The position numbers and the translations under genes are program-made. Below the pieces are notes generated by a model that saw only the letters and a list, made by a program, of their open reading frames with translations, was not told the origin of the DNA and did no database searches. 64,000 bases of DNA from Rhynchonema sp. JSB1_4 (Eukaryota; Nematoda; Chromadorea; Monhysterida; Xyalidae). How positions within the stretch are numbered: position 1 is the stretch's first letter; every line of letters begins with the position of its first letter. Below, piece after piece: positions 931 through 59,653 of this stretch. Location: positions 62,001 to 126,000 of the forward strand of contig JASAMV010007285.1 in the NCBI GenBank assembly GCA_030248065.1. The letters run 5' to 3'.

Positions 931-1346
931 TGAAACGTCGCGCGCCGATTCTGCTCGACGATCCGTCAGCGAATCGCACGAATTTCACGACCAAGCAGCT
1001 GACCGAATTGGAGAAGGAGTTTCGCTATCAGAAGTATCTGACGCGCGCGCGCCGACTCGAGATCGCCACGCAGTTGCAACTGAACGAGACGCAGGTGAAG
1101 ATCTGGTTCCAGAATCGACGAATGAAGGAGAAGAAACGCGAGAAGGAGTCGGCGTTCCTCGCCGCCAACGGCATCGGCCCGTACGGCGGTCGCGTGGCCG
1201 TGTCGTCGCCGTCGGACAACGCCTCGGACAACAACGACAGCAACGCGTCAAACTCACCGCCGTCCACCAACGAGGGACTTGGCCAACCGCCCACCATGAC
1301 CACGCAGTACGCCGGCATCAAACCAGACTGCTTCACCACGCTCTAG
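931..1346 (+). CDS. ceh-13: Hox1 (labial/ceh-13) homeobox gene, last exon only
   Basis: This is the 3' terminal exon of a Hox1-class homeobox transcription factor, a sequence-specific DNA-binding nuclear protein that patterns the anterior body. The exon follows a TTTGTTTCAG acceptor (921-930), starts in phase 1 and stops with TAG at 1344-1346. The 60-residue homeodomain spans about 963-1142. It has the Hox1 hallmarks [16 protein letters not shown] in helix 1 and [15 protein letters not shown] in helix 3, including Gln50 and Asn51. It continues into KEKKREKE, which resembles nematode ceh-13 rather than the KQKKR tail of other animals. The remaining roughly 65 residues are Ser/Asn-rich and look disordered. 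The hexapeptide and N-terminus must be encoded upstream, outside the window or in exons I cannot identify; an ATG-led reading from 876 would run through the intron and is not the true start. Class assignment is secure; the orthologue name assumes a nematode. Confidence 0.93.
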
Positions 1347-9100: not shown

Positions 9101-10368
9101 TCATTTAGTTCTTATAAATGTGAGCAAGATTAGTACTATAAAGCTGCATATATAGTTTCGGACCCTCAAGTTTCTACCCGTACACATACTTTTCCTTCAT
9201 TTGTTCTTCGATACTGGAAAAAGTTCACTTCGTCGACTTTTTTCAAAACAAAAAAAACTTGTTTTTAAGAAAAGAAAAAAACGATTTTTTATTTTTTTCC
9301 AACGCTGGCCGTAACGGTTCATTGCACTGCCCCCAAATCTGCTGGTCACCTTTTCGTCGTCAACAGCATCGCGTTGTGCGTGACTCGGAGCACGGACGTC
9401 AGCGAACACTTTGTTGATGTACGCTCGGTAGGGTTGTTCGTCGCGATTGTAGATTGCTGCGGCGTACGTGTGCTCACACACCACACCACCAACTTGGAAT
9501 GTATCGCACGCGCACGTATAGTGCACCAGGGCTGGCTGCAACAACAGATGAGAAAATGTGCGCAACAAACACCAATCATCAATGACCCCTGCCAACGACA
9601 ATCGACAGTCTTCTTGGCCACGTTACGTGTGACTATTCGTCCAGAGCGGTCAACCGTTCGGGATCAACTGATGACACGAATAACCAACAAAAATTCTGCC
9701 AGACAGCGGTGGTGACAACAGAAAATCCGGGAATGGTCACGAGATGACCAGATGCATATTTGATGAGGTGATAGCGCGTGACATTTGTTGCGTCATCGGT
9801 GCCCAATGCGAATGATCAATGAAGCTTGGACGCATGAATGCGACATTTACGAGCCTTAACCTTGATCGGCAAAACCAACCGTGTCCGGCTGAGTGACCAG
9901 CACGAATCGTTCCGTCTGGAACAACTGCATGTCGACGAGCACAATGTTGAGTGATGTTTCACCCGGATACTGTAGCACGTGCTTGACGGCGGTGCGACGT
10001 GCCAGTGACGTCAGTTTGCGGTATTCGGCCAGCTGGTAATATATGTGAACGTGAAATATCATAGTGATCACATCGGAAAATAAACGCATGATTACAGTAC
10101 ATCTTCAGCCGGTAGCTCGGGGTCAGGCACCGTTGGTTCACTCGCTGATGTTTCATGTGCGGCATTAGTAGGCGATAATGACGACACCTGCAACGCACAT
10201 GGACATTGCGATTGGTCGGCGAACACACGCTGACGATGCCCTGGTGCACAGCCAGTCTGTCTGACGAAATAGGCAACGAAAAACACGCAACAATTCAAGG
10301 CTGCCTACTCGTTCGTGGTCGTCAGCCGTGTTCGGTTGGTTGTCGGTCTGCAGCTTGACGTCCGTCAT
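6173..10368 (-). CDS. SWIM zinc-finger gene B (paralogue of the 3' half of gene A)
   Basis: Six exons join in phase 0: 10309-10368 (start ATG), 10101-10187, 9880-10032, 9350-9535, 7158-7355 and 6173-6300, the last ending in phase 2. This gives about 271 residues with the C-terminus missing. Exon 4 carries a complete SWIM-type zinc motif (CAC, nine residues, CEH). Exons 5 and 6 carry a second one split by an intron (CNC in one exon, CMH in the next). SWIM domains bind zinc and usually mediate DNA or protein contacts; this protein's role is unknown. Exon 2 is an acidic, Ser/Thr/Pro-rich linker. Exons 3 to 6 match the exons of gene A at 22.38, 21.89, 20.82 and 20.41 kb in order, motif and mostly phase, so B looks like a partial duplicate of A. 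It is read in the same direction and lies just downstream of LIG4. Its introns contain repeat arrays and transposons. Confidence 0.7.
6544..6903 (+). repeat. Six spaced copies of ATCTATCTATCGTCAACA
   Basis: Copies at 6544, 6574, 6603, 6634, 6829 and 6886. The first four are spaced 29-31 bases apart; the last two are further off. Copies 3, 4 and 6 carry one to three changes. The unit is 18 bases and the intervening sequence is unrelated. It lies in the gene B intron between the two halves of the second SWIM motif. Confidence 0.85.
7684..8860 (+). repeat. Four-copy intronic repeat, copy 1 (split by an insertion)
   Basis: A dispersed repeat containing the block CCCAGTTTGATACCGGCCCC, a second block around GGGAGGTCTATCGCGAGTG and a third around CACGTGACGTCGCACTGG. 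It is shared with 23466-24176, 28040-28395 and 32140-32455. All copies run in the same orientation, antisense to the host genes, and all lie in introns. Only copies 1 and 2 retain the right part (CAGACTGGAACGCCGCC to about 8860). Copy 1 is interrupted at 8193-8653. No long reading frame is conserved, so it is non-autonomous; the class is unknown. Confidence 0.8.
8193..8653. mobile_element. 461-base insertion with 8-base target duplication
   Basis: The insertion is flanked by ACGACCAA at 8185-8192 and again at 8654-8661. The repeat copy at 23936-23943 shows the uninterrupted site (GCGACCAA, with only one instance). Both ends contain an inverted ATACTTGC word. An 8-base duplication is typical of hAT-type elements, so a hAT-derived non-autonomous element is the best guess. 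The interior is AT-rich with many GTTTTTTCG-like words and no coding capacity. Confidence 0.75.
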
Positions 10369-14000: not shown

Positions 14001-17000
14001 CCAATCATGAGCACAGGGTTTTCTGCCACTAATGGCGGCTCATTGGGCCACCACTAAAAATTTGAAGCAAGCCACACAAAACTCACTGCTGTTACATTAT
14101 TTGGCGAATGAGGCACCTTAACAGCCACATTCACCCTGTGTACCCAAGCTGTCAACACAAGAGTCGACCTAACCAGTGGCACGTTGTCGTTTCCTCACAG
14201 TGCTGCTATTGGTCGTCGCTGTTGTTTGTGCATCAGAGTTGTTGGCCAGTTGCAGTCGATGCGCGATCTTGCCATCGCATTCCTGTTATCACACACAATC
14301 ACTGAACATTAGATCACGATCTCGCGTCCGTTTCGTTTCAAACACATAATCGGTGATCCGATCGGATCTGCTATCGTCACGCGACTTCTTTTCTCAACTC
14401 AAGAATAATCTTATGACAGTTGACATTTGTCATTTCATTAATCGATAATATTCGGAATAGCCCGAAAACACGAGAAAAAGGCAGATCCAAACACCAAGTT
14501 CGATCTCAGAGCCCAAAATCGCACGCACCAATCGCATTTTCTCAAAGTCGACCGTCGTCATACAATCTGACCAGCCCTTGTCGGTTCGTATTTTCTGCGC
14601 ACGCGCAAAACGCAACGTGTGGCCGACGGCGTATGAGTCACTGCGTGTGATCTCAGCCGCGCGCACCTGTTGGTGAAAATGCACTAATCTGCTGCTTGCA
14701 CTATACACAACACCCGAAATATCACTCGGAACTAAAATGACCCAGAGGAAAACTTGCTTGGTGGTCAGTGCTTTTGCACGAACGAGAACGCGAGAATTCG
14801 CACTGTCATCAGTTTCGACAATGATTAAAATTGATGACGGCAGCTACAGTGAGAAAGATGCACGGCGGTCAAAAAGATAGACAATCCAACACACTGCTTT
14901 CGGATTTCTTTCTAAGTAACGATATTCCGCACCATCCGCTATCACACCGTTGTACATTGTTGTCGCTCTGCGAACATTTAGTTTCTAATAGCATGTTGTC
15001 CGTGTCTGTCTGTCCGTGATTTCGTCCACGTCAGCTAATCTTGAAAGATCATGTTTTGAAGTATTCCGCGACTTTTCAGACCCGATCTTTTCAGGCCCGG
15101 TCGATTCAGGCCCAGCATGTTTGACCCATTTATAGGCTTAGGCTCCAGCGGGGCCGGAATCGGTCGGGCCTGAACCTGTGCCCCGGGACTGAATCGTCGC
15201 GCAATAGACTTCAAGATGAGCCACGTGCGCTAAATTTGATACCGCCGACTAGTTCACACACTTGTTACACAGCAATGCACACACACGGTCGTCACCTGAA
15301 TGAGTTTCGACAATTGTGGTTTGATGTACACGTCGGGCGTCTCGGAGCCGACGACCAGCCATTGGGGCACACGTTTGACAGTCGATGCCAGACTCAATGC
15401 CCCGGACTGATTGAGGTGTACATTGAGATCGTACAATTCCTTTACTTTGTATCCACTGCCAACTTTGCACAACGTATGGAATCGCTCCGGTGGCTCGCCT
15501 GCGCACACAACGGATTGGTAGTGTATGTCGAAAAGGTGGTCAGCAGCTTTGACTATGGAGAAAACAAGCGGATCTGCACATTTTTCTGAACAATTTCCGC
15601 CTGCAAAAATGTCGATTCCTAAAAATTGGAATGTTGGATGCAAGCAACACCCGAAGTTTTCCATTTTGCACACAAAACACCGAAAACAGCCTTATTTTAC
15701 GGACACGTTGCTGCGAATTGTACCCGATTTGAAATAAGGACGAATTCCAACCGCCGAGTCTCTACAGTCTCAACAACCAATCAGCCAAAAACCATTCAAG
15801 GTCAATCGGCAGCGACGCACCGGCGGTCGGACTGGGCTCAGCGAGCGCCAGCAGAAAATGCGACATGATGTTCGACCGGGGTCCCTCGCCAAAATATCCG
15901 CCGACAATGCAGACGTCGAAGTCGTCGTTGAGCGCGTCAATGTAATCGGGCTGCAATGCGACAAACAGAATTATGACGAGCACATGATCCACAGATATCG
16001 ACAGCACCAGTCGTCCAAATGCCGGTTCTCTTTAGTTCTGGCAAAAACACGAAAAAGAATAAATAGTGTTGGTGTATAATCACCGGGGAACCCAAATCAA
16101 ACACGTTAGGCACATGTTTTACTGCTGCTGACTTGTCAGTGTTATGCTATGTCCAAAACGAGCAAATACGACCACTTTCTCCACGATAGGCGTTGATCAT
16201 GAAAAATATAATTTTGTCCCCAAATACGATTGTCAGAAATCGTACGTTTCAGTCAGAAGGAAAAATAACAAACAACAACAGCCTTGTTAAGCCGAATGGT
16301 GCACACAAATCAGAATCCACCATCTTCACCTTAATTTTCAGCCATCCAGCAGCCTCACTTCGCACATTCAGCTGATAGGTCGAGTCCATTCGTTTCACGA
16401 CGATGCCTTCCTCGCGTGCCTCGATCGCTGCGTTCAAACACGCGATCAGCTCGGCGCTGCAAACATTGAACATTCATTTAAAATGCATCATACTCTTTTG
16501 GAGGATTTAAAATCTATTTGAAATAAAGTAGCAGATGAAAAATTTTCTACCAATAGCAAATAAACATCAAATACGATACCAACTGACCAGGTCTGTTTGG
16601 TCTCGCGTTTGGCCAGCATCAGACGACCTTCCAGTTCGCTGGTGAATATTTGATTTTCTAGGACCTGCAAACAGGACATGATGCACAACCGAAACCCGCT
16701 GAATGAGGAACATTGAGCACATGAGAATTTTTACAAATAAACACGAATATTTAGCAGCTCTGTCGCCAGTTTCAGACGAGCGTCACAACCGTTCCGGATG
16801 ATACCTGCAGTCTGTCGGCCAGTGGCTGCGCGCTGAGCACTTTGCCGTTCAACATCAAACAGTCGAACACGACCAAACACGGATGTAGATCATCGCCATC
16901 ACGCAATGACTTCACGTCGAAGTTCTCGCCCTTGGTCGCTAGAATACAGATTATTGTGCGGCGATTCAGTCCCGGGGCACTGGTTCAGGCCCGGCCGTAG

Positions 17001-19831
17001 CCTAATCCCAAGCCTATAAATGGGTCAAACATGATGGGCCTGAATCGGCCGGGCCTGAAAAACAGGGCCTGAAAGGGTCGGGCCTGAAAAGTCGCGGAAT
17101 AAACACAGATAATTAAACAGTGGGTTGTTGCCGCAATGACTTGTAGTTCAATGATCACGTCGTTTTACGCACAGCCAACTCGAACGCTGATGGGTTGTCA
17201 CACTAGCGGTGTTAAAAAATAAAAGTATGTGATCTTTTTGGCCCAAAGCGGCCTCGAGTGCCGACACTCTACCGGGAAGTCCTTCGGTCCTCAGCAAGGT
17301 GCTCCCCTCACGGAGGGCCGGATTGGCCTGCGACCGAGATGTCTCACGAAACAAAACAAGCAGTAAACCTGCATTTTAGCACCAAAAATCATCTAAATTT
17401 TGATGTTTACCACAAACGCACCGATACATTTGGCAGCCGGATTCCAACCGACCATTTCCGCGTCCAGTATGCACGATTGCACCGAGTCCATAAACAGACC
17501 ATCGATGTACGGCGTGAGACTGCCACCCTTCACGGAATCACCGTAGGACGACGTGAAATCGTTGCCGCTGCACATGTGCGTGAAACATTAGGTGGCGGAC
17601 ATACCAATGTAATATGTCGATATCAAACGCGGTGATCGCATCGCATCTGCCGCAACTTGCATCGAACACGTGTCGCAATATGCGGATACGTATTTCTGTT
17701 TTCGACCAGAGAGTGTGAAAATTGGTCGCATGTACAACGAACAAGAAACTGATTGACCGATCGAATACAGAACTATCATCAATGCACATCTGCCTACTTC
17801 AAAAAGTCACGTGTTCAGAACAAATCCCCCTCTGGTCATATGCAATCAGCAAGGTTGCTGCCGCTATTAGCACGCACCCAAAGACGATTAGCACACGTGC
17901 ACGACCCATAACGCACTTTCTCGAGTAGTATTTGTAGGCGTGTGCCTGTTTGTGCACCTGCACCCGTTCACCGTCGTACTTGACCTCGACATAGAACGGT
18001 CGATTGTGCATTGCGTCCGGCACCCTGTCGATCGACACGCGCGCTGCCAACATTGGACGAAATGGCTGCCACAGTTCGATCTCGATCTCGTTCATACTTG
18101 TGGCTGGTGAGTGCAGCTTCTCGGCCACCTGTGTCACACGCACATTTTGGCCTGTGTACTCTTGCATTTGACGCACGTTTTGCTCCGACGGGATTATGAA
18201 TTGTACAGCAATGTGCTTTTTCGGTTGCCCGTTTCGAGCTACCTTCGCAGACGGGGGGCGCTCATGGCCAAGGTCATGATCAGGGCGTGAGCGCCAGATG
18301 GCAAATAAACACACGAGCCACAGATTATGCGAAATTGGCAAACATGCGACACAAAATACAGGCGCTGGGGTTCAAGTGATCGCACCTGTTTGAGCGAAGT
18401 GGTCACATCGTAGAGCTTGCTCGCATCAGGATGGAACACCGCGAACACTGTCGACTCGCTCACGCCGATCTGTGAATTGATATTGATTGGCGATATTATA
18501 ATCATAACTGAGTCAACCACTGATTGAATGATCACCTTCATTTGTTTGAGCAGAATTCGCACCAGCCATTTCAGTTGACTAGATGTCACCGTACGACACA
18601 GCTTCTCCAGTTGCTGTTCGGCGCGCGCTGTAGCACAACAACAAAGCTAGCTCATCGTGAAAGCAGTCAATTGACCAGTAATTGCCGAGAATGACGTCAT
18701 ACATGGCAAGATGGCTGATGTTTCACAGGCACTGTAAAGTCACACAAGCGAGCTAAAACTGGCGCACCCTTGTCCTTATCAGTGTTGGCATCGACAATGT
18801 TATCAAGCACGTTGTTGAGTTGACTGATTGTGATGGTCCCCTGTGACGGCAGGCGACTCTGCAGCACTTGAGCGCACGTCGATGCAAAATCGCCGATATC
18901 CTGTTCAGACCGATTAATTCATTTGTCAATTTTTGACGGTAAAAATACTGGCGGATAAAAACGGATTTTTTTACAGTTCGTGAAAAAAACTGGTACTTTA
19001 TGACGAATATTAATCTCATCACAGATGGTAACAGTGGTGTCAATAGGCGTGTTTAATACTCATTGCGACTCACATTGTTTAAAAATGCGCACTGACATTG
19101 TCCGCACTTGACTGAAGGTGTTATGAAGAAAACTGCTTGCCAAACTTCGGACAAAAACTTGATCGTGACAAAACCGATGTTTTCCCTCATGCAGCAGTTT
19201 TTCGTTTTTATCGGTTTTTCTCACATCGCAGATGGACCCGGTTTATTCAGTAAAGCCCTTTTTTCATCCACCAGTATAACGGCAAACAATGAACATTGTT
19301 CAATACGAACTGTATTCAGCGACCAACCAACCGATGATGGCGCCGCGGTGTGTGGCTTGCGATATTCGAGCAGACAACGCGCGTCTTCCGAATGCGGCGA
19401 CAGACAGAACACGCCCATCAATTTCTTGGCCAACATGTGCTGCAATAAAGGCATCGGTCAAAACACGGGATGTGGAGCAAAATATGAGGCCCCTAATTAG
19501 AAAACTCCACTGGTGCCCAACCTCCTTGAAACCGTAACTTCCGCGTTCCTTGTCGAAACTCGGGAGAATCAGACGCAGTGCCGGAAAGAACGAGTCGCCC
19601 TGAAATCGCAATTGCACGTCGGTCAACCACACCAACAGCCTGTCCAACAGCACCCGACCCGACCTGTGCGGTGGCATTGTCACTGGCATGCAGTTTGCGG
19701 TGCGCATCCCGCCACGAGGCAATGAATCGGCCAAGTATGTCCCGACGTCGCTGCTTGTTGCTCGTACGACTCACTGCGTCCAGCATAGCACACAGATCGC
19801 TGAATGGCACCAGATCGGACACCGTGCTCAT
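11063..19831 (-). CDS. LIG4: DNA ligase IV
   Basis: ATP-dependent nuclear ligase that seals double-strand breaks in non-homologous end joining with XRCC4. Exons, 5' to 3': 19664-19831, 19522-19599, 19332-19439, 18768-18900, 18536-18627, 18386-18469, 17917-18128, 17422-17567, 16805-16938, 16588-16664, 16330-16456, 15821-15950, 15296-15498, 14529-14666, 13305-13496, 12979-13120, 12769-12907, 12613-12701, 12398-12550 and 11063-11213. All phases agree except one short missing exon (phase 0 to 1) between 13497 and 14528. The total is about 900 residues (human, 911). The N-terminal domain starts with VPFSDLC. The nucleophile is Lys271 in KYDGER. Motif IV is EEGIVVK and motif V GWLKIK. BRCT1 begins near 13.5 kb. 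The linker ending in FGDSY, which in the human protein binds XRCC4, is present, and BRCT2 ends in a Trp-containing helix (VGWLTGSI). No inactivating change is seen. Confidence 0.93.
11353..11783. mobile_element. Foldback element with CACGGAAATATTTCCGTG palindromes
   Basis: Inverted termini of about 40 bases begin AGGGCGAACTTAGGTTGAAC on the left and end in the complementary word on the right. The interior holds many copies of the palindrome CACGGAAATATTTCCGTG and its half sites. It lies in the last LIG4 intron and is non-coding. Confidence 0.8.
11795..12268. mobile_element. Foldback element built from TGGAAAATGGAAATG
   Basis: Starts CTAAGGGCGCCCTTAGTCAT followed by AGTGGAAAATGGAAATG and ends with the inverse, CATTTCCATTTTCCACTATG then ACTAAGGCCGCCCT. 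Internal copies of the same termini at 11930-12010 and near 12150-12190 suggest two or more nested or tandem units. The AGGGCG edge is shared with the element at 11353-11783. Non-coding; in the last LIG4 intron. Confidence 0.75.
15061..15206 (+). mobile_element. MITE family 2, copy 1
   Basis: About 146 bases with imperfect 20-base inverted ends (TATTCCGCGACTTTTCAG and, inverted, TATTGCGCGACGATTCAG). The interior is rich in CAGGCCCG and GGGCCTGA words. It sits in a LIG4 intron; an inverted copy is at 16952-17102. Confidence 0.8.
16952..17102 (-). mobile_element. MITE family 2, copy 2 (inverted)
   Basis: Same termini and interior as the copy at 15061-15206 but in the opposite orientation, 1.7 kb away in another LIG4 intron. 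It contains AGCCTATAAATGGGTCAAAC, shared with copy 1 on the other strand. Confidence 0.8.
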
Positions 19832-45728: not shown

Positions 45729-48700
45729 TCATATTGGCGCTGCCGTTGGCTCGACGAGTATTTCATTGATGGCCACATGCGTGGGCGCACGTGCGGCGAA
45801 CAACACCGCCGCCGCTATGTCCTCGGGATCGAGCACTTTGTGCGCACCCAGTGTACCGTCGTATTGTTGACGAGCCTGGCAGGTGATGTCTACTGGTATA
45901 CGTATACGTGACGACATGGCCCGTACCCAGTCGGGGGATATTACGCAATGTCGCTCAGCGCGTGCATTGGGTGATGTTTTCGAAACGGTGTAAAGGTCAG
46001 TTGGGCGTAAAGGTCGGTGTAAAGGTCGGTGGAAAGCTCGGTCGACAGCTCAGTGTGATAGACCTCGGTGTAAACTTGAAACATTCCACGTTAATAACAG
46101 GCAACGTTTCACGTTTACACCGAGCCACGCCGACCGAGCTTTCGACCGAACTTTACACCGACCTTTACGCCCAACTGACCTTTACACCGTTTCGAAAATT
46201 CCACCCATTGACCGTGGCTCCATTGTGCCCCGCCAAGCACCGGCCGGTGACGAACTCGGTGCGTTTGCACAAGCAAAAAAAGCCGGTTTTCACATTTTTG
46301 GAGTGACTTGGCCATCTCGTTCATGGGCACGGACGATGACCTGGTGCGCCACCCGTCGTCGGTGAAAACAGAAAGGCGTTGCCAAAAACAGGCTGCGTGA
46401 CAAAACATCCAGGTACCGACGTGCATTGTGGGCTTCTTACATCTACCTGTGTGAGTAATTGAAACACGTTGAAAGATTGTGATTAACGCGCGACCAAGTG
46501 ATAAACAAATGTCTCATGACGCAACGTTATTCTCGATGTTTCACACACACACACACCTGCATATCAGTGCTTCGTCCGGCCAATTCGGTCTGCACATCGC
46601 CCGGTTGTATGCAGGTGACCTTGATGTTGTGCTCGGCCACCTCCTCCCGCAGCGCATTCGACATGCCTTCGATGAAGAACTTGGTGCCCGAATACACCGC
46701 CAGACCAGGGAACGCCTGTATGCCGGTATGCGGGCAAATTTACCACACGTGATCGTAAGGTTGATATTTTTTGCGAAATTTCGGAAAAAACAAAAATCAA
46801 ATATGTGGACACGAACCCGTCGGCCGGCATCGGACGAGATGTTGATGATGTGGCCGGCCTTGCGCTCAACCATGCCCTTGATGGTCGCGCCAATACAATT
46901 CACTGTGCCCTGCATACACAAACATTCACTTGTTGTTCAGTCATTGTGAAACATCAGCCAGGAAGCGCCAACCTTGCAGTTAACGTTGATCTGCGTCTCC
47001 CACTGGTCTTCGGCACAACTCTCCATCTTCGTGTAGTACATAATGCCGGCGTTGTTCACCAGAATGTCGATGTCCCCAAATTGGGCGTGCGCTTTACGCA
47101 TCAACTCACCCACCTACAGTGTGGCCCGAAAGTAGCTTACTATAGTGAATGGAGATCCACGCGCGTAGCCGGCTGCTTGCATATTATTGGAGTAACATCA
47201 GCCCCCGCGCACGCAACACAGCCAGCATGAGCTTATGTTTCACCAATGTTATATAAACAGTCTGCTGGCGCGCTTTCTTCAATAAAGAACGGTGTGTCCC
47301 AACAAGCAAAAAAGTCCTTGGTTAAAAAAAAACAAAAATTAAGCATGGGATAATTTCGACTTTTTTGTCCCCAAAATGCACGAAATATGCTCAATTTTCA
47401 CCCCGCAACGCAAAAATGTTCTCCCGAATGTAATTTATAACCACGTTTTAGTCCCTTGTTCTCAATTCCTCCAACACCTTTGGTAAACTTGTCGTTCAAG
47501 TTTCCTATACAGACAGATACTTTCCCTTCATTTTTTCTTCGATACTGGAAACAGTTCACTACGCCGACTTTAAAAAAACAAAAACTTGCTTTTTTAAAAA
47601 AGAAAAACACGACTTTTTCTTTTTTCAACGCTGAGGAACCGTACTGCGCGTCGTCAGACACATGCCTAATCGGTCAGTGCTTGGTGATCGGTCCGGTGTT
47701 GCTGATCGAACCTCTTGCAAACAAAACTGATTCCACTAAAGCGAAAAGTTGTTCCTTGAATAGGCATTGAACATCTCGACATATGTAGGTATGCAGCTAT
47801 TGTAAACCAGAACCTGTTGTAAACATCAGCAGTCAAACACCAAGAAGCGACCGATTCAGGGCGGGCCGATCACCAAGTGGGTGGGACACCGGCCACATAA
47901 TCCAGTGTCAAAACCTAGTCAGGTTACTACTGACTTGAGTCTCCTAAATTGACCAACCTGTTCGCGATCGGTGACGTCACAGGACACGGCGTAGGCGATG
48001 CCGTTGTTCTCCTTGATTTTTTGGCACAAACTCAACAATCTGAGGCGTAAAATAAGGATCTCACAGTTTTCTAAAATGCGCAAACTGCGCGGACAGCAAC
48101 CAAAAAGTAGGTCAAGACCGACTTGTCCTCGCGTCGGGCGGCGATGACCACTTTGGCGCCACCTTCGACCGCCAATTTGTACGCGATCGATACACCGATG
48201 CCGCCACTCGCACCCGTGACGATGCACACACGACCCTCGAGTGGTTGTGCTGCAATAAAGCTTGGTCACATATGTATGATGGGCATGATAACAGGGACCA
48301 GTGGCACGAGTTTGTAGATCACTGGTTACCTACATACTGAACATTTGAGGAAGAGCACTTTGAGCAAGTGAAAAAGAGCAGGGCCAAAAGAGCAGAGCAC
48401 TTATTTTGTGCCAATGGCCTAGGCTTAGGCTGATTTTGGTATCAGGCTTAGGCTTAGGCTTAGGCTTACACTTAAGATTAGTTTTGTGTTTGGGCTTAGG
48501 CTTAGACTTAGGCCTATTCGTTTTTAGGTTCTGCTCTTTTGGACTCTGCTCTTTTTCACTTGCTCAAAGTGGTCTTGCTCAAATGTGCTTTGCTCAATTG
48601 CCCGTCCGCCATCCCAATGTGCCAGACAGCGACCGAAGTTTTGGCCCGTTTCCCCAGATTCACAGCACGCTCAGAAACAGCGCAGTGATAACGAGGGAAA

Positions 48701-51700
48701 GACCAAGGATTACGTGAAACATCAATACCAACAACAACACACCGGCGGTGGCCAAAGGCCTGGGCATCTGTCCCTGCGAGACCATGCGTTTCAGCCAACG
48801 ATGGAAGACCTTCTCGTTCAGATCCGGGTACGTCCAGCCCAACTCTGTCAGCAGCGCGTCCGTGTTGTCGCGGCGCAAAGTCGGCTGTAGATCGACTGTG
48901 AACGCTTTCTCGTCGCTGTGATAAAATGGCAAAAAATTTGTTTGGCTCACGATTGAAAATATACCGAAAGTGGCATATCGAGCTTGGTGATCGAATCGGG
49001 AACGGATCAGCTCTGCCTTGGTCGCGCCACGCTACTCTGGCTTTTTTGTTGAGAACATTATTCCAAGATTATCGCTGATCCCAGTGTACAACCGACCAAA
49101 AAGTAATTCAGGCACATCGGAAGCAATTTTTTGTATCATCAGTTCTCAACAAGATCCCGAACGCGCAAGAGACAAGGCAGGCGGGCGGGAGCGATCCGAT
49201 CCTAGAGAGAATCAGATCACAAAGTTTGATATCGGACAAAATATCAACGCGATCCTTTTGATTGACGGATTGTCAGAGCTGATGTGATTGAGGGAGCACA
49301 CACACGAGCCGGTGTGTGATGTTTTAGTTTACATGACCACCACCTCCACAACCACGGCAACGAAACTCAGTTTGGTTTTGAGAAGCTGGGAAATCCTGAG
49401 ACACACAACTCACTGCAGATAGAGCTCGAGCAATCGATCAAGCATGCGAAGGTTCGGGTTGGAATCGGATACCGACAGCGCCTTGCCGATGCTGAAACAT
49501 TTGTGGTGAATCATAACCAAAAGTTTGTTGTTCCAGATTGTTTTAAGGCAATCAGCGTTCTGTGCTAAGAAAAGCAACATTTATCGTGTGTATGTACATA
49601 TTGTCGTGAACAGGCGAAAACTTCCGATGCCGAATAAACCCAAGAAGTGGTTGGATGGAACTTATGTTTCGGCTGGGGGTTTTATATAAATATTGCTTCT
49701 TCCGATACCGATGATAGGAACCACAGCGTATAGTCTGTCCATCAGCTCATGTCATTATGTGATGCTGCTGGCCGATTTGTTCCCTTCCTCCACGTTCTAA
49801 TGAAAGAGAAATTGAGAAAAATTCTTTTTGTTACTAAATTGCTGTTTTTATGAAATCGACGTTTTATCGATTTTAATGTAGTTTAATTTTAAATTTGATC
49901 GAAATCAATCTTTTCGACACATTTTATTCTTTTTTACTTTTTTTGCAAAATCGCTCACACTCAATTTCTCTTTCATTAGAACGTGGAGGGAGGGAACAAA
50001 CCAGCCAGCAGCAACACAAAGTGCCATGAGCTGGTGGACGGACTATACATTACATACCTGGCCTTCCAGTCACTGTACGAGATGAGACTCATTTCGTATC
50101 CGAATTGTTTCAAATGACTGACCACCTTCTTCCAAGGTGGCGGACTGCGATTGACCAGATGGAAGATCTTGCCGACGTCAGTGGTGAAGCGCTCGGTGGC
50201 GATTTTGGTGATGAAACGCGCCGTAAAGTCGACCGGCGTCATTTCGCACGACCTGCACACGCATAGACATGTACAGTAGTTGTGCAAAACAATAAGTCAA
50301 GTTGTGTGTCAGCGTAATAACTCTTACTGAATAGCTGTTGTTTTGATTTGACTCTATTTCGATTTTGAACTGGATCCATTTGTTTTCCTGCATCTTATGC
50401 AGACCTGTGTATTTCCATAAAGCACAAACGCAATTCAGTGAATTCGAATGACTCCCACCTGAACTGGGCGAGGTTTCAGAAACACTACGTAGGCGTGTCA
50501 TAAAAACCAAGCATGTTCTCAAAACCACAAATTTGCAGCAAAGGTGAACAAATTTCTGCACATCTTCATACCAGCAATGTGCTATACCCACATCGATAAT
50601 TTTTTGTTACTCGCGAAGCTGAAAAAATGTATGATCCCACTTGCCATTGCACAGACGGTGCGAGCCCGATTGACGCAGACCCGTACAACATGAGATACGT
50701 GAAATCGGCTGGGTTCCACATGGCCACCTCAGAATCGGGCGCTTGGTTGCCTGAAATGGAAAGGGGAGTGACTCATTGTCGACTCCAACACCATGTACAT
50801 GCGGGCAAACACAATTCTGACGAAACAGACTTTAACCAGATCAATGCACGCCCACCAAGTCTGTATATGAAGACGGGCAAGCCTCGTTTCTGTGATCGCA
50901 AGACGAGTTGTTCGGCGACCCACTTTGATTGACCGTACCCATCCGTTAATCGCTCCCAAATTTCGCCGAAATCAGCCGTCTCCGGGAAATCCTTGACATC
51001 AGGCGGCACCACTGCGTCGCTACTGAAACATCACCCATTTGTTTGGCCATGTGTGTGATTGTGGGAAAAGACGGACGATCGGCGCCGAACCGACCTGACG
51101 TAGTGCAACGGTTTGACTTTGTTGGCGTAACAGAAGATGATGACGTTCTGCGTGCCGAGCACGTTACCGCCGTGCAGCGCCTGTTGATTACAAAGTCGCC
51201 TTATTGTCTGTCGAACATTCGCAGTACATTGGCTATAAACTGGCATATATACCTGATAGGGATAGATGAGATTGACATAAGCGGCGGCATGAATGACGAA
51301 ATCGACCTCGTAGGACACAAAATGGTAGTCATCATCAGTTAGTCCGAATTGCATCAGGGTCACATCACCTACAGCACAATCAATCAAACAAAAGTTCAAA
51401 CACAATTTTGTGACAAATTGTACGTGAATGCCGTACCCTTGACTACAGTAATCCTGTTGTCGATCCATTCCTTCATTTCGGCGTCCAGCAGACAGAATTT
51501 GGACAGTGCGTTCTTCAGTCGCGCCTCGGCCGATTCGCTCGCTGATTCACGAATCAAACAGATGCATTGAACCTGACAATCAGGTACATTTCGGTGCAGA
51601 TCAGTGAAACACAAGCAAAACAGAACAAGAAATTACTAGGTGCCGGCGATTTCCGTTTGAGGACGCTGTTCCGGTTTGGTTTTGGTTTTTTTTGAGATCA

Positions 51701-54700
51701 AAGAAAGCAAGCGAAGCAAAGTTGGAACGTATAAGGGTGCTTCATGGTCATCCAGTATAATAGTACACAATAAAGTCATACACTTCATTCAGCCCTAAAA
51801 TTCCTCCTCATAAAATCTGCTCTTCAGTTCTGATATCCAAACCTCGCCCATTTGTGTGCCCAACCAACCTTCGAGTATCGCATCAAATCGCGCAGAATCG
51901 TGCTGCCCAGAAATCCAGTAGCGCCAGTCAACAGCACTGTGCCACGGGCAAATCGATCATCGAGCATTTTCACCGATCTCCAGAATGCGCGCAGATGCAA
52001 GTCCATGCTGAGCGTGGTTGGAAGTTGAAATTGGCACTTTGTGCGTGCATTGAAACATCAGATTGTACACACACCAAAACGCGCACGCTCACTCACTGAC
52101 ACCACAAATCACAACATGGAAAGTTACCCAACTGTTTGTCACCAACCTTAGACTGAAAAATAAACAGAGGGATTCTACTTTTGGTTAGTTTTGTCGTGAC
52201 GTGACCATTTATCGTCGTTATGGTATATACGTTAGGCAGAATAGGTACTATCGAGGTGGTGCCAAATGACCACAAATAAAGCCTAAAGCACCGCGCTCGA
52301 CGTACACGGCATCCCTGAAATCGTGTTTCTCCACTTCGTCCTCCAGATTCAACGTCGGTGTGGGCGTCGCACATCGTTGCGTATCGTCCGTCTCCAGCAG
52401 CTGGGCAAAAGACGACACCGATGCGTGCGTGAACAGGTCGCGTACGGCCAGGCGAATGCCGAACTCCTCTTGGATCTTGCCCAGCAGACGCGCAGCCAAC
52501 AGCGAATGACTGCAATTATAATACAACCACCGAATAATTACAAGTTTGTTTATACTGTAACTATAATATCTTCGTTCTCTGAGAGAACAGAGAACAGTTT
52601 CCTGACACTCTTGTTGGCTTTAACGCGTTCGGCAGCCAACCAGCACGCGAGAATTTCTTCTCTGTCCTCACAGAGAAAAAAATATAGTCACAATAGGGCA
52701 TATATACTGATGACTGGAAGTTAAATTTCAGACGCAAGTATAACTCTGTCTTATCAACAGCGTTTGCATGCCCTAAATTTAGACCCCCTAATTTATCGCC
52801 GGACCGTGAACGATCTTGTGCTTGTGTACAAGGTCATTCACGGTCACATACCTGGGGTAACCAAGGAATCCTTCTTTCCATCTCGTGACACCGGCCGCCC
52901 AACCCGAGGGCACTCCCACAGTTTGTGTCGAGTCCATGGCGCGGGTGCAGACTTGTCCGGATACTGGGCCTATCGTGTCGTGGACCTCTGGAACAGGCTC
53001 CCAGAGGACGTCGTCTCTGCTGCCTCAATTGCGGCCTTTAAAACTAAACTAAACTCACGTGGTCGAGACGTAGTTTCTTGCCACATTTCATCAAAATTTT
53101 CAGCTGTCGTTGACTGATCCCCTCAGTCACTGGGTTGCTGCTTTCAGGTCATCATCAATTTTGTTGACATCTGTTATCATCTCGTGTTCGCCATCAATCG
53201 CCGATTTATCGCCTGCCGTTGCTGTGTTGTTTGTTGTTATTGAATCTCTCCGGTACGTTTTGTCGTTTGATCATTCATGATTATAATTTTGTGTGCTATT
53301 TACTGATATTGTCTCTTTTTACTGATATTGTCTCTTTTTAGGTGTTTGCCTGATCTCCTGGAGGTCTTTGCGTGAGCTAACAGATAAAATTTGAATTTGA
53401 ATTTGAACTCCATCGGCTCATGGCACTTTTTATACACACAGCGCATGCAGCAGCACACGCCATTTTCTCAACAAAATGTACACTTTGAGCGAGTGTCATA
53501 CTTTGATGGCCGCTTTGTAATTTACTCGGTTTTCATTAGCTGCTTTACATAACACTTTTCTGCACTGTTGCAAAATTTGGGGATGTTTCAACGGATAACT
53601 GCAGAGAATAGATGCATTCATTGACGGCAGTAATGCAGCATGCAGCCAGTGTGTGCGAGTGCCATGAGCTGGCGGATTGCCTATACTGTACGTAATTGCA
53701 CTGCAAGGCTCTGACATGCAAACTTTCAGTGTTTTGGCCCAGAATCTGCTGTGTTGAAGATAATGTCATTTGGACTGGACCACGATGAGCACAACAAAAA
53801 GTTGTTGTTGTGGGAATTTATTGTTATGCAAATAAAGCAAAGTTTATGGTCGATTCCAAGTGTTTAATTTATAGTCACCAACCCTCCGAGATCAAAGAAG
53901 CTCTCCTGAATGTCGATGTTGTTCAATCCGAGAATGTCCATCCAAACATTGGCCAGTCTTCGTTCGGTTTCGGTCTTCGGCAACGACTCCGGTTCGACCA
54001 TATCTTTCACCGCGTCGACTTTCGGCAATAAATTCTTGTTCACTTTGCCCGTCGCTTTCAGCATCGGCAGGCTGCAACGTAGTATGACAACAACATCGGT
54101 GATGTTTCATTTCTGAACTGTTGTACTTGGCTGTCGCTTGTCTTGATGCGTACAGAACATAAACATCGCGCCTAAGCAAGGGGAGCCGACTACTACGCAA
54201 GTCTGGTGGCCATGCTTTGTACCACAATCAGACCATCAATGATTATTTTATTCTTGTTATCATGCCCATTCAAACACTGTGATATACAGTGAACATCCTT
54301 TTCAGCACTAAGTCGGTCTTGAAATTGGGCGGTTTCTGTGCGTGTATAGTCATAAATTTTGAGCATAAAAGCTTGGCCAGTCCAACTAAATCATAAACTT
54401 TTGTTCGACCGTAAAATTGCAATGTTGAATTGGCGCCCTGCACAACCAGCATAGAAATTGTTGGTCAATGGTCAATGTGCCTGCCATGCCTTCAATGCGT
54501 CATGCACACCCACCTTTCCATGACAATAAAGAACGTCGGTATCATATAGAACGGCAAGCGACGTTTCAGCGTGGCCCTCAGCTCCTTCTTGGTCTTGTGC
54601 TCTTTGAGCACCAAATACGCGGCCAGCTGTTTGTCCTCACCCTCAGCGCCGTGCGCCACAACTGCTGCTTGAATGACAAAGGGCAACTGTAGCAGAGTCG

Positions 54701-57700
54701 ACTCGATTGCCTGAATCAATAGACATAGAATGTTGTTCGCGCCAAAAATTGAAGAGACAAAATGCAAGCACGCAAAAAAATGTCGACGTTGGACAAATCG
54801 GACCTGCAACTCGACCGAGTAGCCCCTGACTTTGACCATCGAGTCGCATCGCCCGCAAATCTCCAGGTTTCCGTCCGACAACAAATAGCCCCAATCGCCA
54901 GTTCGGTAGAGTCGAGGGCCGAACTCGTCCTTCAGATCGGTCGGCGTTTCGATGAAACGTTTGGCGCTGATCTCGGGTCGATTCAGATAGCCGATCGCCA
55001 GTGTTGGACCGCCGACGTAGATCTGGATGCGTTCATATGGCCATCGAGTCACAAACATTGAACTTTTTGGAAGAAAAAGTGCCCGGATTATGCGCCATAC
55101 ATGCAGCACGCGTAACCGAAGACTGGGCTTGCATGAAAGTTGCTGCCACTGATGAAAAATTACATAATAACGGGGAGCGCATGAGCATGAAAAATTACAT
55201 ATATATGTGTTTGGTTGCAGCTGGAAATCCTCAAATCCATCAAACACATAACATCAAATCCACAGCCAACCTCGCCGGATACACCGATCGGCTGTTTCTG
55301 CATCTGTCCATTCAGTATGGCCACCGTGACTTCATCAAACACTTCGCCCGCGGGTGCAAACTGGCGACGGGCCTTCTCTTTGCTCTGCAACACAAACGGA
55401 GTGGGGAATCTTGAGACTTTGGTGCTTTCGGGGTGCCGAAGTTTTCCAAGGCACCCAAATTATATCGTGTCCAAATATTATTGGTCATGTCTGCAAAATA
55501 CGTACATTAGAGCAAAAGGTCTTGCTTTTGAAACATTAAAATGCAGCCTGCAGGCTTATAGTAATGTTGTCAAATCATCTCCTCAATAATAAAATCGTCG
55601 TACACATGCATTAGTTTTCGCGCTCATTTGTGGCTCATGTGTTGGACGACTTTGCAAGATGATTTCACGACAAAACTATTAGCCCAGCTGCTTTTGTGAT
55701 CTGACCGATTGTACGATGAATGGACTTTGGGGGCACACAATTGGGGTTGTGCCTGGAAAACCACGGTGCGATTATACTGGTGTGGGGTGTGACTCTGAAC
55801 CTGGCAAAGCACATGAACATCAATATTGCTCCTACACAGAATAGTTCGGCATTACAGTTGTACACGCTGTACGAAATTACAGTACGACATTGTATAAATT
55901 ACAAAGAACCAGTATCTTAACCTGACCATTACCATACATACATAACTGTCAATCAGACCGTTACTGTAGCCATGCGCCAAAATTTAATTATCGATGTTCT
56001 AACATTTGTGCTCCAGCAGTCCCATCCCAGGCATTACAACATCTAAATTTCATAGCACACCAATACAGTTGTCAAATATACCACTCACAACAGTCCATTT
56101 GTGTCGCTCTCTATGTTTCTGATATAAAGATAGACCCATTCATTTGGGCACGTAGGTATGTACGAGTGTGTCCTACCGTAAACCTGTTAGTACCGTAACC
56201 CACATCAATGTTGCGTATCCAATTGGTCAGATCGCACACGCCAATGTCATGGCATTCGCTGACCGAGTACAGATTCAGTATCTGCACCCAGGGCAGCAGC
56301 ACGTCGGCTGCATCCATCAGCTGTACGGTCACCACCTCGCCGCACAGCCAGATTATGCTGCAATACAGGGGATGGTCACGTGATTGGTGAACACGACATA
56401 CAAAAGACTTACTTCCCTATTGAAACATCACCCTGCAATCATACTTTTAAATATACTGTGTGCCGACAGTCAGCGCGACCCGACCAAACCCGACCTCGAT
56501 GACAAACTCGTTATATCCTTATTCAAAAAGTCACGGCCTGAGAACGGCGTGAGAGTCCAGAACCAGCTCAGAACCGTCCGGTGCATACGCACGACCAAGC
56601 CATAAGCCAACCGAATTGATTCGAACGATTCCCTGATGAAATCCTGTGTCTGCGTATCGATGATTGTCTGCAACAACGACGGCGTGAACAGCACACGCGT
56701 GATCTTGTGTCGCGTCAGAAACTCGCATAGCGCTTGTGGATCGTAGATCACCGTGTCTGGTATGATGTACATCCGCACACCTGCCATACAGTCAAGCCTT
56801 GATATAATGAACCTCTGTGTAGTGAACGATGCTTGGTTCCAACCCCATCCAATTAGCCGTAAAACGAACGCCTGGTGCCCACTCGATAATGTGAATATTC
56901 TTATTTGGTGATCTGTTCACAATCACGTCTTCACAGAGTTGTTGTTGGAATAAAGTTGTTCCTCTGTGAACTGTTTATTCTATAGGTTTTGGTTGAAGGC
57001 ACCGAAATAAAATGTACCAATCCTCCGACTACCTAGTAAACTGCACGCCGACCTGCATAGGTGTGCACCATAAAGTATAGTCCAGCAACACACGCAAATA
57101 TGCAGCCACACTCCTAAAAACGAAAAACCACAAAATCCCTAACCGAACCCACACCCTTTTTTTTTTTTTTTTTCTTCCCCTTCTCCCCCCCCTCCCCTCC
57201 CTCTCCAAATTTTTTTTTTTTTCTTTCCTTCTTCTCCCTTGCACGAAAAATTCATACTTTGGCCACTTCTTTTTCTCTTTCTTTCTTTCGCGGTCTTTTG
57301 CATGCTACCGTAACCCCCAGTCGAACCATTCCAATTTTCATGTCTGAAGCGAGCGCGCACGTTTTCCGCTTTACGGATCAGGCAGATTGACTGCCATAAA
57401 TTCTGCGTTGGTTGTTGTCGGACTTATACCTAATGAGTAGATCATTTCATCTCAATCCACCCAACGTCCCAATGTTTGTGCCTACCCTGGAGAATCGGCC
57501 GCAACATTTCCCAGACGAAGAACACATTGCACGCAACGCGGTCATCGTCCTTGAACGGGTAGTGCACAAAACGCCATTGGTACGACAGCACGGCACCACG
57601 ATGCGGACACATGATGCCTGAATTGGCAAGCTCACTCACAATGAATGTTCTTCTCAATTGTGATTCTGTATGTGCCTAGATCCTGGCTGGTAGTGTGTTC

Positions 57701-59653
57701 TAGGCGGAAAACAGAAAGTTCGAAGTTTGTTCTATAAGTCATGTGCTGCTAATTGTCCATAAACCATAAGGTCGATAAGCCCAACAATTGTTGCTCGTTT
57801 CGACCTGCTGTGCAGACGGGTGGTGTATTGGTCGCACAATGACTTTATAAGAATTGGTCAATTTTTTTTCCTGAATCGTAAAGAGGGAATGTGAGGGGGG
57901 AACTTCGCCCCGCGCACTCCAAAAAAAAACACAAAGTTTCAGACAATCAGCAACATCGGTGCTCTGCTGGATTATTTTCAGATGAAATTGTTTTGTGAGA
58001 ATCACAATTAGCCAAGTGGCCAAAGACAACAATCAACATATTCCAAGCGCCCACCACCAAAACCCCCAGATGACGACATATGCATGACCATAAAACAGTC
58101 TACTGTATGTACATACCTTTCGGTTGTCCGGTGGTGCCACTCGAATAGACGACATACGCGAGATCATCTAGCAAGATTTTGGGTAGTTTCGACGCCAGGT
58201 CGTTCTCGATGGGCAACTCGTTGCGCCATTTGTGGTCGTAAACGAACACGTTCTTCTGCAGTCCGAGCAGATTGACCTGATACTCGGCCTTGGTACACAC
58301 AACGGCCGGCTTGGCTTCCTTCAACACTGCCTCCAACAGCGGACGGGGGTAGCTGATGTCCAGTGGAAGGTAGCCACCGCCTACAAACACAATATAACTA
58401 TAGCTGGTCATAGTGCAAACTTGGGCTTCTTCTGCTCTGGTCGACGCCAATCGTCGCTTTTCGCTCAAGCGGCAGGCGGTGCTCACGTGTTGCAGCGGCC
58501 TCTGCGCATGCACATGTATGTATTGTGTGTTCAGTAGACGGAAATGACCCGATAATTTGCCATTTATAGAAGGAAATTAAAAATGTTTAGCTTGTTTTAA
58601 TGCTAAATGTTTGTAAAAAATTACAGCATTCCAACCGTGCCGCACACAACGGTACAAACATAAAATGGCAATCAGCGCCTCCATCCCCTGATGAGCGTCT
58701 AATATTTGATACAGTATGCCCATTGTGAAGCATCACCCAGAGTTATACCTGCTTTCAACGCAGCGATGTATGTGAGCACGTACTCGGCACATTTGTCCAT
58801 GTAGATGGCAATGGTGCACCCTTTCCACGCACCGTAACGTTCCACAAACAGCACAGCCAGTGCGTCCGTGATCTTGTCCAGCTCACCTAACGTCCATGAT
58901 GGATAATCCTCCGTGCATATAACCTGAGGTAGCAAGGCCGGCGTTAGATAACGGCACTTTGTCACGCAGGGATATGCATGACGTTCTGTTCAGTGGACCC
59001 TGTTATATCTCTGGTAAGTGATGTTCCACTGAATCTTTTCTCACCACCCACCAAATCTTGAGCCCCCTCTTTTAGCCCTGAAACGAGTCGGCAAATGGGG
59101 AACTGTCCAAGAGCTTAGGTGAAATGGCTTGCTGTGGCGTTGTGGCTTATGCATCTCTGATGCGTCAGCACCCAACAAACACGATCTCCGATATCAAAGC
59201 ATGAAACTTGGTGACCGCACCAGTCAGGTCTCCACCTCGGTCGCGTGACTCATTTATAGATGAGGAACATTTCGAGATTTACCAATGCCACAAATTTTGA
59301 CCAGCGTAAAAGGTGGTCCTTTTCAACTGGCAAACAACAAAAAAAAAAAACGAAAAAAGAAAAAAAAAAAAAAAAAAGAAGCAAAACCACAACCAAAAAC
59401 CAAAATGTCTGTATGACAACGTGTCTCAACTACATTAATTAGCCAATCAAAGAATTATTATCAAAAATGTTCGACGAACGGTGTTGTCGGGCACACGTCT
59501 GGCCCTGTCCCTGAACATGTGCACCAACGAGCCCAGATGTTCGTACGGACCGACGCCGTTCGCACGCAGATTGCTGCGCGATCGACTTGGCTGCATTTGG
59601 AACGCTTTGTCGATGAATTTATTGTACGCGACTGGAAATGGTGATGATGCCAT
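45729..59653 (-). CDS. NRPS-like carboxylic acid reductase, A-T-R-SDR (ATRR-type)
   Basis: The enzyme adenylates a carboxylic acid, loads it on phosphopantetheine, releases it as an aldehyde and probably reduces that to an alcohol with NAD(P)H. 27 exons join in phase to 1,336 residues: 59480-59653, 58749-58923, 58117-58380, 57486-57617, 56612-56780, 56177-56357, 55271-55384, 54804-55022, 54514-54710, 53883-54071, 52306-52509, 51869-52007, 51437-51572, 51253-51368, 51095-51180, 50856-51022, 50645-50750, 50058-50252, 49414-49491, 48965-49012, 48743-48915, 48123-48249, 47958-48039, 46973-47113, 46817-46909, 46557-46715 and 45729-45875. A domain: [11 protein letters not shown] (about 194), YRTGD (442), [11 protein letters not shown] (459), Lys551. 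Carrier: GGHSLL with Ser607. R1: GATGFLG (701), Tyr860/Lys864. [11 protein letters not shown] (1099), Tyr1243/Lys1247. The A4 motif reads NVFFVWE, lacking the alpha-amino-binding Asp. The start could also be 59677. The R1-SDR join is phase-consistent but has an alternative with a hydrophobic tail and stop at 48660. Confidence 0.85.
45969..46205. repeat. Hairpin of GGTGTAAAGGTCGG units
   Basis: The left arm (TTTTCGAAACGGTGTAAAGG, GTCAGTTGGGCGTAAAGG) is answered by its inverse ending TTTACACCGTTTCGAAAA, with a loop of about 60-80 bases. The arms are themselves built from short GTAAAGGTCGG repeats. It lies in the last intron of the reductase gene. Confidence 0.82.
48343..48600. mobile_element. 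Foldback element of the TGAGCAA family carrying TTAGGC repeats
   Basis: The arms AGCACTTTGAGCAAGTGAAA plus AAGAGCAG and their inverse (CTGCTCTTTTTCACTTGCTC) enclose a core of TTAGGC units (48416-48520, at most four in a row). A related, decayed element is at 5476-5642. It lies in the intron between the R1 and SDR parts of the reductase gene. Confidence 0.8.
49729..50047. mobile_element. MITE family 1, copy 3 (long hairpin variant)
   Basis: Family termini (TATAGTCTGTCCATCAGCTC and inverse) but a different interior. The inverted arms extend for about 100 bases (GTTCCCTTCCTCCACGTTC and inverse) around an AT-rich loop. It ends 10 bases from a splice donor (GTATGT at 50057) of the reductase gene. 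Confidence 0.85.
52736..53407 (+). mobile_element. 5'-truncated LINE remnant
   Basis: The frame 52764-53117 reads like the extreme C-terminus of a non-LTR retrotransposon polymerase: a YRR...[11 protein letters not shown] segment, then RGHSHSLC and [22 protein letters not shown]. About 290 bases of untranslated tail follow, ending in repeated TTTGAAT units (53388-53406), as in CR1/L2/Jockey-type elements. The endonuclease and reverse transcriptase core are absent. It lies antisense in an intron of the reductase gene. Confidence 0.8.
53408..53686. mobile_element. MITE family 1, copy 4 (decayed)
   Basis: Edges CTCCATCGGCTCATGGCAC and GTGCCATGAGCTGGCGGATT match the family termini with several changes. 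The interior differs and has weak inverted arms. It directly abuts the LINE tail. Confidence 0.65.
57155..57230 (+). repeat. Polypyrimidine T/C tract
   Basis: Runs of T (about 16 and 13) with C-rich stretches between, in the reductase intron near 57.2 kb. Low complexity only. Confidence 0.9.
59337..59378 (+). repeat. A-rich tract
   Basis: Runs of A broken by G and C, in the first intron of the reductase gene. Confidence 0.9.

Follow-up and report, generated by a model that had tools for sequence, protein, structure and literature searches.

The window analysed here, a stretch of 64,000 nucleotides from the nematode Rhynchonema sp. JSB1_4, holds on its minus strand a predicted gene of the ATRR type, whose product would carry an adenylation (A), a carrier (T), a thioester reductase (R1) and a short-chain dehydrogenase (SDR, R2) domain. 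In the splice model rebuilt from the raw sequence, this gene runs from an ATG at 59653 to a TGA ending at 45729, and the predicted transcript comprises 26 exons and 3,963 nt, encoding 1,320 residues with consistent exon phases; 24 of its introns are GT-AG, and intron 17 is GC-AG. The exons are predictions from the genomic sequence, guided by the conserved core, by phase and by the signals for splicing. The features of the gene, all derived from the splice model with any further evidence in brackets, are the following:

45729..59653, minus: whole predicted ATRR gene, ATG to TGA (homologs, genome matches)
53883..59653, minus: A domain, exons 1-10, AMP-binding 47-416 and AMP-binding_C 478-551 (Pfam)
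52306..54071, minus: T carrier domain, exons 10-11, residues 580-643, phosphopantetheine Ser607 in GGHS (Pfam, alignment)
48743..52007, minus: R1 thioester reductase domain, exons 12-20, NAD_binding_4 699-937 (Pfam, structure-relative search, alignment)
45729..48249, minus: R2 short-chain dehydrogenase domain, exons 21-26, adh_short 1079-1271 (Pfam, structure-relative search, alignment)
59480..59653, minus: exon 1
58749..58923, minus: exon 2
58117..58380, minus: exon 3, P-loop YSSGTTGQPKG
57486..57617, minus: exon 4, pocket motif NVFFVWE (alignment)
56612..56780, minus: exon 5
56177..56357, minus: exon 6, donor uncertain (alignment)
55271..55384, minus: exon 7
54804..55022, minus: exon 8
54514..54710, minus: exon 9
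53883..54071, minus: exon 10
52306..52509, minus: exon 11
51869..52007, minus: exon 12 (alignment)
51437..51572, minus: exon 13
51253..51368, minus: exon 14
51095..51180, minus: exon 15
50856..51022, minus: exon 16, R1 YxxxK (alignment)
50645..50750, minus: exon 17, followed by the GC-AG intron
50058..50252, minus: exon 18
49414..49491, minus: exon 19
48743..48915, minus: exon 20, where R1 ends; its phase-1 donor leads into the SDR exons (alignment)
48123..48249, minus: exon 21, R2 TGASGGIG (alignment)
47958..48039, minus: exon 22
46973..47113, minus: exon 23, R2 NNAG (alignment)
46817..46909, minus: exon 24, R2 catalytic Ser (alignment)
46557..46715, minus: exon 25, R2 YxxxK (alignment)
45729..45875, minus: exon 26, with the stop

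Several donors of this model are weak, and that of exon 6 is ambiguous by 18 nt, with an in-phase alternative end at 56195 and a shorter loop in this region in the nematode rows shown in the alignment. At the junction of exons 11 and 12 the query reads VMDLHLRAFWRS, where MDLHLRAFWR is common to all nine nematode rows shown. A preliminary description of this DNA had given the same start and stop and had claimed mutually agreeing exon phases, both of which are borne out by the 26-exon model; its 27 exons and 4,011 nt, 48 nt more than in the rebuilt gene, were not reproduced. Three inverted repeats, perhaps small hairpin elements, are found within introns (45965-46210, 48341-48586 and 49728-50048), with arms of 49–89 nt that are 90–93% complementary.

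The introns, as well as other parts of the window, also hold a dispersed 10-mer present on both strands, TGATGTTTCA, with a consensus of about GGCTGATGTTTCACAATG. Examples of its sites are as follows:

9951, 10145, 12945, 18715, 29704, 46947, 48715, 51024, 52051, 54099, 56421: sites of TGATGTTTCA in the window

This word occurs 11 times in the window against 0.12 expected with uniform bases; 30 kb taken from six other contigs (L033-L038) likewise contain 11 copies, against 0.06 expected (about 190-fold), and the reversed word was found in neither set. When one mismatch is allowed, a form of the word occurs 15 times in the window versus 2.5 in shuffles; other words, such as GGAAATATTT (14 copies), are commoner in the window than TGATGTTTCA itself. 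Genome-wide, a 15-base extension of the 10-mer is present 202 times, as opposed to 0 for the reversed control. The 10-mer shares GTTTC with the plectid piRNA motif and resembles the piRNA or SNAPc motif of early-branching nematodes, which contains GTTTC (PMC6436959, available text). A role as a piRNA promoter was rejected, as 34 instances displayed no downstream T signal, with a largest z of 1.8 between +25 and +59.

Other elements of the window include a homeodomain exon (807-1343, plus strand) with best matches to Hox1/labial-type proteins, the first ten of which include nematode ones (Syphacia, Thelazia) as well as those of an ostracod, a bird and a fish. An ATP-dependent DNA ligase, perhaps ligase IV, has exons at about 15-18 kb (about 15257-18371, minus strand; DNA_ligase_A_M above the cut-off and DNA_ligase_A_C below it), and a SWIM zinc finger, barely over the cut-off and perhaps part of a mobile element, lies at 9200-9622 on the minus strand. 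In the genome, 20 matches to the homocysteine S-methyltransferase family PF02574 were obtained (L004-L011; contigs C1043, C127 and C3874), with five of them on C1043 in both orientations; some might represent betaine-homocysteine methyltransferase. The mitochondrial contig C2636 (L002) carries cox1 and, recognised by eye, cox3, under code 5; the best database match of this cox1 reaches 76% and the next ones 61–71%, while the first entries bearing a name, from arthropods and Heterakis, reach 62–65%.

In the predicted ATRR protein, Pfam recognises AMP-binding at residues 47-416 (E 5e-55), AMP-binding_C at 478-551 and PP-binding at 580-643, followed in the C-terminal half by NAD_binding_4 at 699-937 (E 3e-56) and adh_short at 1079-1271 (E 1e-57), which, together with the splice model, places A, T, R1 and R2 in this order in a single predicted polypeptide. 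The residues usually regarded as catalytic in these four domains are present: the A domain holds the P-loop SSGTTGQPKG, starting at residue 196, and Lys551; the carrier holds Ser607 within GGHS; R1 holds Ser833/Tyr861/Lys865; and R2 holds Ser1214/Tyr1227/Lys1231, the Ser-Tyr-Lys of a C-terminal YdfG-like classical SDR. Aligning the query and the 120 listed homologs gave 121 rows, of which several are partial; position 833 is Thr in 111 of these rows and Ser in 8. Pfam and the alignment hence confirm the adenylation, carrier, thioester-reductase and short-chain dehydrogenase domains with catalytic motifs reported in the preliminary description, whose A-T-R-R order and resemblance to the glycine betaine reductase ATRR also hold in view of Pfam, the homologs and the trees. 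Moreover, 678 of 1,249 aligned residues (54%) are identical to a Steinernema protein of the same architecture, which argues against the gene being a product of chance. When the whole 204 Mb genome was searched with a Steinernema ATRR, at least 22 matches were obtained, 20 of them at the locus described here, covering residues 20-1258 of the query with gaps; the remaining two (C4420 and C4009) comprise only an SDR, and 45729..59653 was the only such locus found, these counts being lower bounds.

The sequence relatives with solved structures were LgrA modules in the case of A-T, MxaA in that of R1, and bacterial SDRs in that of R2. The relatives of R1 include the bacterial carboxylic acid reductase CAR (PDB 5msc) and the R domain of MxaA (4u7w). 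CAR proteins have an A-T-R order, are not known to carry a C-terminal SDR and halt at the aldehyde; unlike them, the query protein has an SDR in frame after the R domain. ATRR from Aspergillus nidulans and the query have the same domain order and a predicted two-step reduction. The A. nidulans protein was reportedly identified as a glycine betaine reductase by Hai et al. in PNAS in 2019.

Considered as a whole, the following mechanism is quite likely: the locus would encode a nematode-type ATRR that reduces glycine betaine to choline within one A-T-R1-R2 polypeptide. Reductase activity is presumed for the predicted protein, and the splicing, cofactor, product and reaction direction are predictions for this copy, with glycine betaine as the best guess for the substrate. 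A phosphopantetheinyl transferase (PPTase) would arm Ser607 of the T domain. The A domain would then take glycine betaine into a pocket devoid of the usual amine-binding Asp and lined by the aromatics Phe237, Trp240 and Trp308 together with Asp342, spending ATP to form the acyl adenylate, and the acyl group would be passed to the carrier thiol. Next, R1 would release betaine aldehyde with NADPH, and R2 would reduce this aldehyde to choline with a second NADPH. If this mechanism is true, the animal would draw choline from its own betaine pool. The genome contains a PPTase-type exon (AASDHPPT_N, PF22624, E 4.8e-8) of the animal PPTase type, and a genome search with the PPTase family profile PF01648 gave no match.

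The choice of substrate relies on ten mapped pocket positions: V236, F237, W240, S283, W308, C310, L334, D342, I343 and K551. They were mapped with the LgrA alignment and with the GrsA pocket numbering. The stretch before residue 240 is five residues shorter than in LgrA, which makes the mapping of the first positions uncertain. The mapping is supported by the five plant-parasitic nematode rows shown (P0091, P0098, P0106, P0005 and P0007), where 308 is the variable one of the ten positions. Across the 121 rows, F237, W240, S283, D342 and K551 are invariant wherever filled (113 of 113 filled rows for both Phe237 and Trp240), and the others vary little with the exception of 308, which is W in 69, I in 20, L in 10, H in 9, V in 8 and another residue in three, with 2 gaps. 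An Asp is characteristic of the amine-binding site of amino-acid-activating enzymes of the Lys2/Ebony type. None of the 121 aligned rows has an Asp at residues 232-245, the expected site of the FDxS Asp, and the query reads NVFFVWE there. The candidate betaine pocket would thus consist of NVFFVWE, Trp308 and Asp342, its first positions being uncertainly mapped and the set compared containing no fungal sequences. Such a set of aromatics plus an acid suits a trimethylammonium group, and the fungal ATRR study is said to explain betaine binding by cation-pi interactions.

The wide variability of position 308 could tune the pocket, and this true ATRR might have another quaternary-ammonium acid, such as gamma-butyrobetaine or carnitine, as its natural substrate and produce the matching alcohol. 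This is a rather unlikely alternative, given that the nine other positions are either invariant (five) or nearly so, and that the pocket equals at eight of ten positions that of M. incognita (P0091), from which it differs at 308 (Trp versus Ile) and 343 (Ile versus Val), and whose phenotype in yeast is observed with glycine betaine (PMC11050029, available text). Five of the ten pocket sites differ between the M. incognita and A. nidulans ATRRs, according to the same text.

An enzyme activating alpha- or beta-amino acids like Lys2 or Ebony, or one stopping at the aldehyde, would be in keeping with the general A-T-R likeness and with LgrA, an amino-acid-activating protein, as the nearest solved A domain. 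Nevertheless, this is very improbable, since residues 232-245 hold no Asp, the motif being NVFFVWE, and the catalytic residues of R2 are intact, so that reduction to the alcohol is expected.

Regarding the integrity of the gene, 112 of the 120 listed homologs, as counted by eye, combine a PF00106 SDR with A and R domains. These span 13 animal phyla and a protist, which indicates that the fusion is genuine. The eight listed homologs devoid of PF00106 (P0091, P0098, P0103, P0106, P0109, P0110, P0119 and P0120) and P0093, which ends 48 residues past the start of the linker, early in the SDR, make up nine short homologs that stop near the linker. Among them, P0091 is the database entry for the M. 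incognita ATRR without its SDR part, whereas the cloned cDNA includes R2 (PMC11050029, available text). Alternatively, the locus might hold two head-to-tail genes, one for an A-T-R protein with a hydrophobic tail from intron 20 and another for a separate SDR, because the frame continues, if the donor at 48743 is unused, for about 26 mostly hydrophobic residues up to a stop at 48662-48660. This arrangement is very improbable: the donor and acceptor phases of exons 20 and 21 match exactly, a short linker occupies the equivalent place in fused relatives, the R1 and SDR trees are concordant, and the tail is found in none of the nine short homologs, although three of these stop before the linker and are uninformative. 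Retention of intron 20 would add a membrane-like tail, encoded by the hydrophobic frame with which this intron begins (48660-48743, minus strand); a role of the tail as a membrane anchor was rejected, since the relatives seen do not have it and the fused splice is in phase.

The phylogenetic position of the query was examined in a quick full-length tree with SH-aLRT support and no bootstrap. Its 85 rows consist of the query plus 84 of the 120 listed homologs, those that carried a name tag and were longer than 1,080 aa. The query groups at 100% with 13 nematode rows, consisting of ten named species, presumably from clades III and IV, and three others; P0091 from M. incognita is part of the alignment and was left out of the trees. 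In this tree the query branches outside the nematode ATRR copies compared. When the A, R1 and SDR domains were each given a tree of 37 rows, the query was sister to the same 13 rows, with support of 100, 99 and 95%, respectively. The identity of the query is 50–54% to nematodes, 47–50% to other animals and 43% to the named protist; as the first value barely exceeds the second, the placing among nematodes relies on the trees. In the full-length tree 13 forks are open, the acoel sits on the one long branch, and 13 rows have an odd composition. Its named phyla mostly cohere, but its deep order departs from accepted animal relationships, with nematodes beside tunicates (93%) and insects nearer to cnidarians. 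Five protist-like rows, of which Hondaea is the one with a name, cluster in a separate clade attached to the flatworm and acoel rows, likely a long-branch artefact.

The gene is an animal one, and probably of the nematode type, judging from these sequence comparisons. A fungal or microbial gene acquired by recent transfer or contamination, which the fungal origin of the first ATRR characterised might suggest (PMC11050029, introduction), is practically negligible in the face of 26 predicted exons, a full-length and three domain trees that place the query with nematodes (in a comparison set without fungal sequences), an identity of 50–54% to nematodes compared with 43% to the named protist, and, in the same window, an exon for a Hox1-like homeodomain. 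The preliminary description had proposed a single fused A-T-R-R gene of animal origin, had used the dense introns as an argument against transfer or contamination, and had suggested a phylogeny of the A and SDR domains including fungal ATRR. The single gene is upheld by the architecture of the homologs, the in-phase splice and the concordant R1 and SDR trees; the A, R1 and SDR trees, each branching with nematodes, and the Hox1-like homeodomain bear out the animal origin and strengthen the argument against transfer; and the A and SDR domains both fall beside nematode ATRRs (100 and 95%), with named fungal proteins outside the comparison.

One of the closest known relatives is MiATRR from M. incognita, which overcame in yeast the growth inhibition caused by glycine betaine, a growth rescue rather than a detection of the product, and which exhibits higher expression in parasitic juveniles as well as RNAi effects (PMC11050029, 2024, available text). 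It resembles the query in holding A-T-R1-R2 in one protein, of 1,306 aa compared to 1,320 aa here, and shows 32.62% similarity to the A. nidulans ATRR (same source). Its database entry P0091, without the SDR part, is identical to the query at 496 of 992 aligned positions (50%). On the other hand, the query has Trp308, where Ile or His is found in the five rows from plant-parasitic nematodes; the query branches outside the nematode copies, and its function is a prediction from sequence. ATRR-like proteins from other animal phyla are also similar in sequence, for example two that NCBI names glycine betaine reductase ATRR or ATRR-like: P0019 from the mollusc Haliotis rufescens, with 48% identity over 97% of the query and the same fusion, and P0093 from the sea anemone Nematostella vectensis, with 46% over 82%, this isoform stopping shortly after the SDR begins. 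In public databases, the names fatty acid synthase and linear gramicidin synthase subunit D are attached to many of the animal ATRRs.

The surprise of an ATRR in an animal, implied by the preliminary description, does not stand, since a nematode ATRR with yeast and RNAi evidence was already published (PMC11050029, available text) and many animal copies are present among the 120 listed homologs. The gene is an expected, ordinary member of an ATRR family already in print. According to the available text of PMC11050029, atrr genes of fungi, protists and invertebrates were reported in the 2019 PNAS study; that of PMC10947199 contains just a citation of the same study. Neither 'ATRR' nor 'betaine' appears in the accessible part of a 2023 survey of animal NRPSs (PMC10531068). 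In the open literature, covered by titles and the beginnings of abstracts and with subscription papers mostly outside, PMC11050029 was the sole direct ATRR report among the results, and no paper mapping ATRR across animals was found.

The 120 listed homologs include members of Nematoda, Arthropoda, Mollusca, Annelida, Brachiopoda, Nemertea, Platyhelminthes, Echinodermata, Hemichordata, Chordata (tunicates), Cnidaria, Placozoa and Xenacoelomorpha. The phylum labels were assigned to the homolog names by us. No named vertebrate, Caenorhabditis or fungal protein occurs among these 120, which for vertebrates and Caenorhabditis is only suggestive of absence. Within nematodes, an NRPS gene has been described as absent in clade I and NRPS-like genes as absent in clade V, with one in an aquatic nematode of clade C (PMC11050029, available text). 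The breadth of the homolog list, together with the grouping at the phylum level, fits an enzyme that was already present in ancestral animals and was lost later in some lineages, and argues against an origin for plant parasitism. There is about an even chance that a single fused ATRR was ancestral to animals, kept in most invertebrate phyla and lost in clade V nematodes and perhaps in vertebrates, with its role in plant parasites arising late. The probability of this reading is tempered by the deep order of the tree, which is at odds with accepted animal relationships; the same order neither proves nor excludes early transfers of ATRR.

The oxidation of choline to betaine in animals is usually taught as a one-way process. 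If the ancestral reading is true, this process would also be run backwards, with betaine serving as a recoverable store of choline, and the role in plant parasites would represent a late use of a housekeeping enzyme, and no invention of parasitism. The presence of ATRR in a nematode outside the copies compared, as well as in 13 phyla, cautions against reading the nematode ATRR as an adaptation to plant hosts, and makes the recycling of betaine to choline in ordinary invertebrates directly testable.
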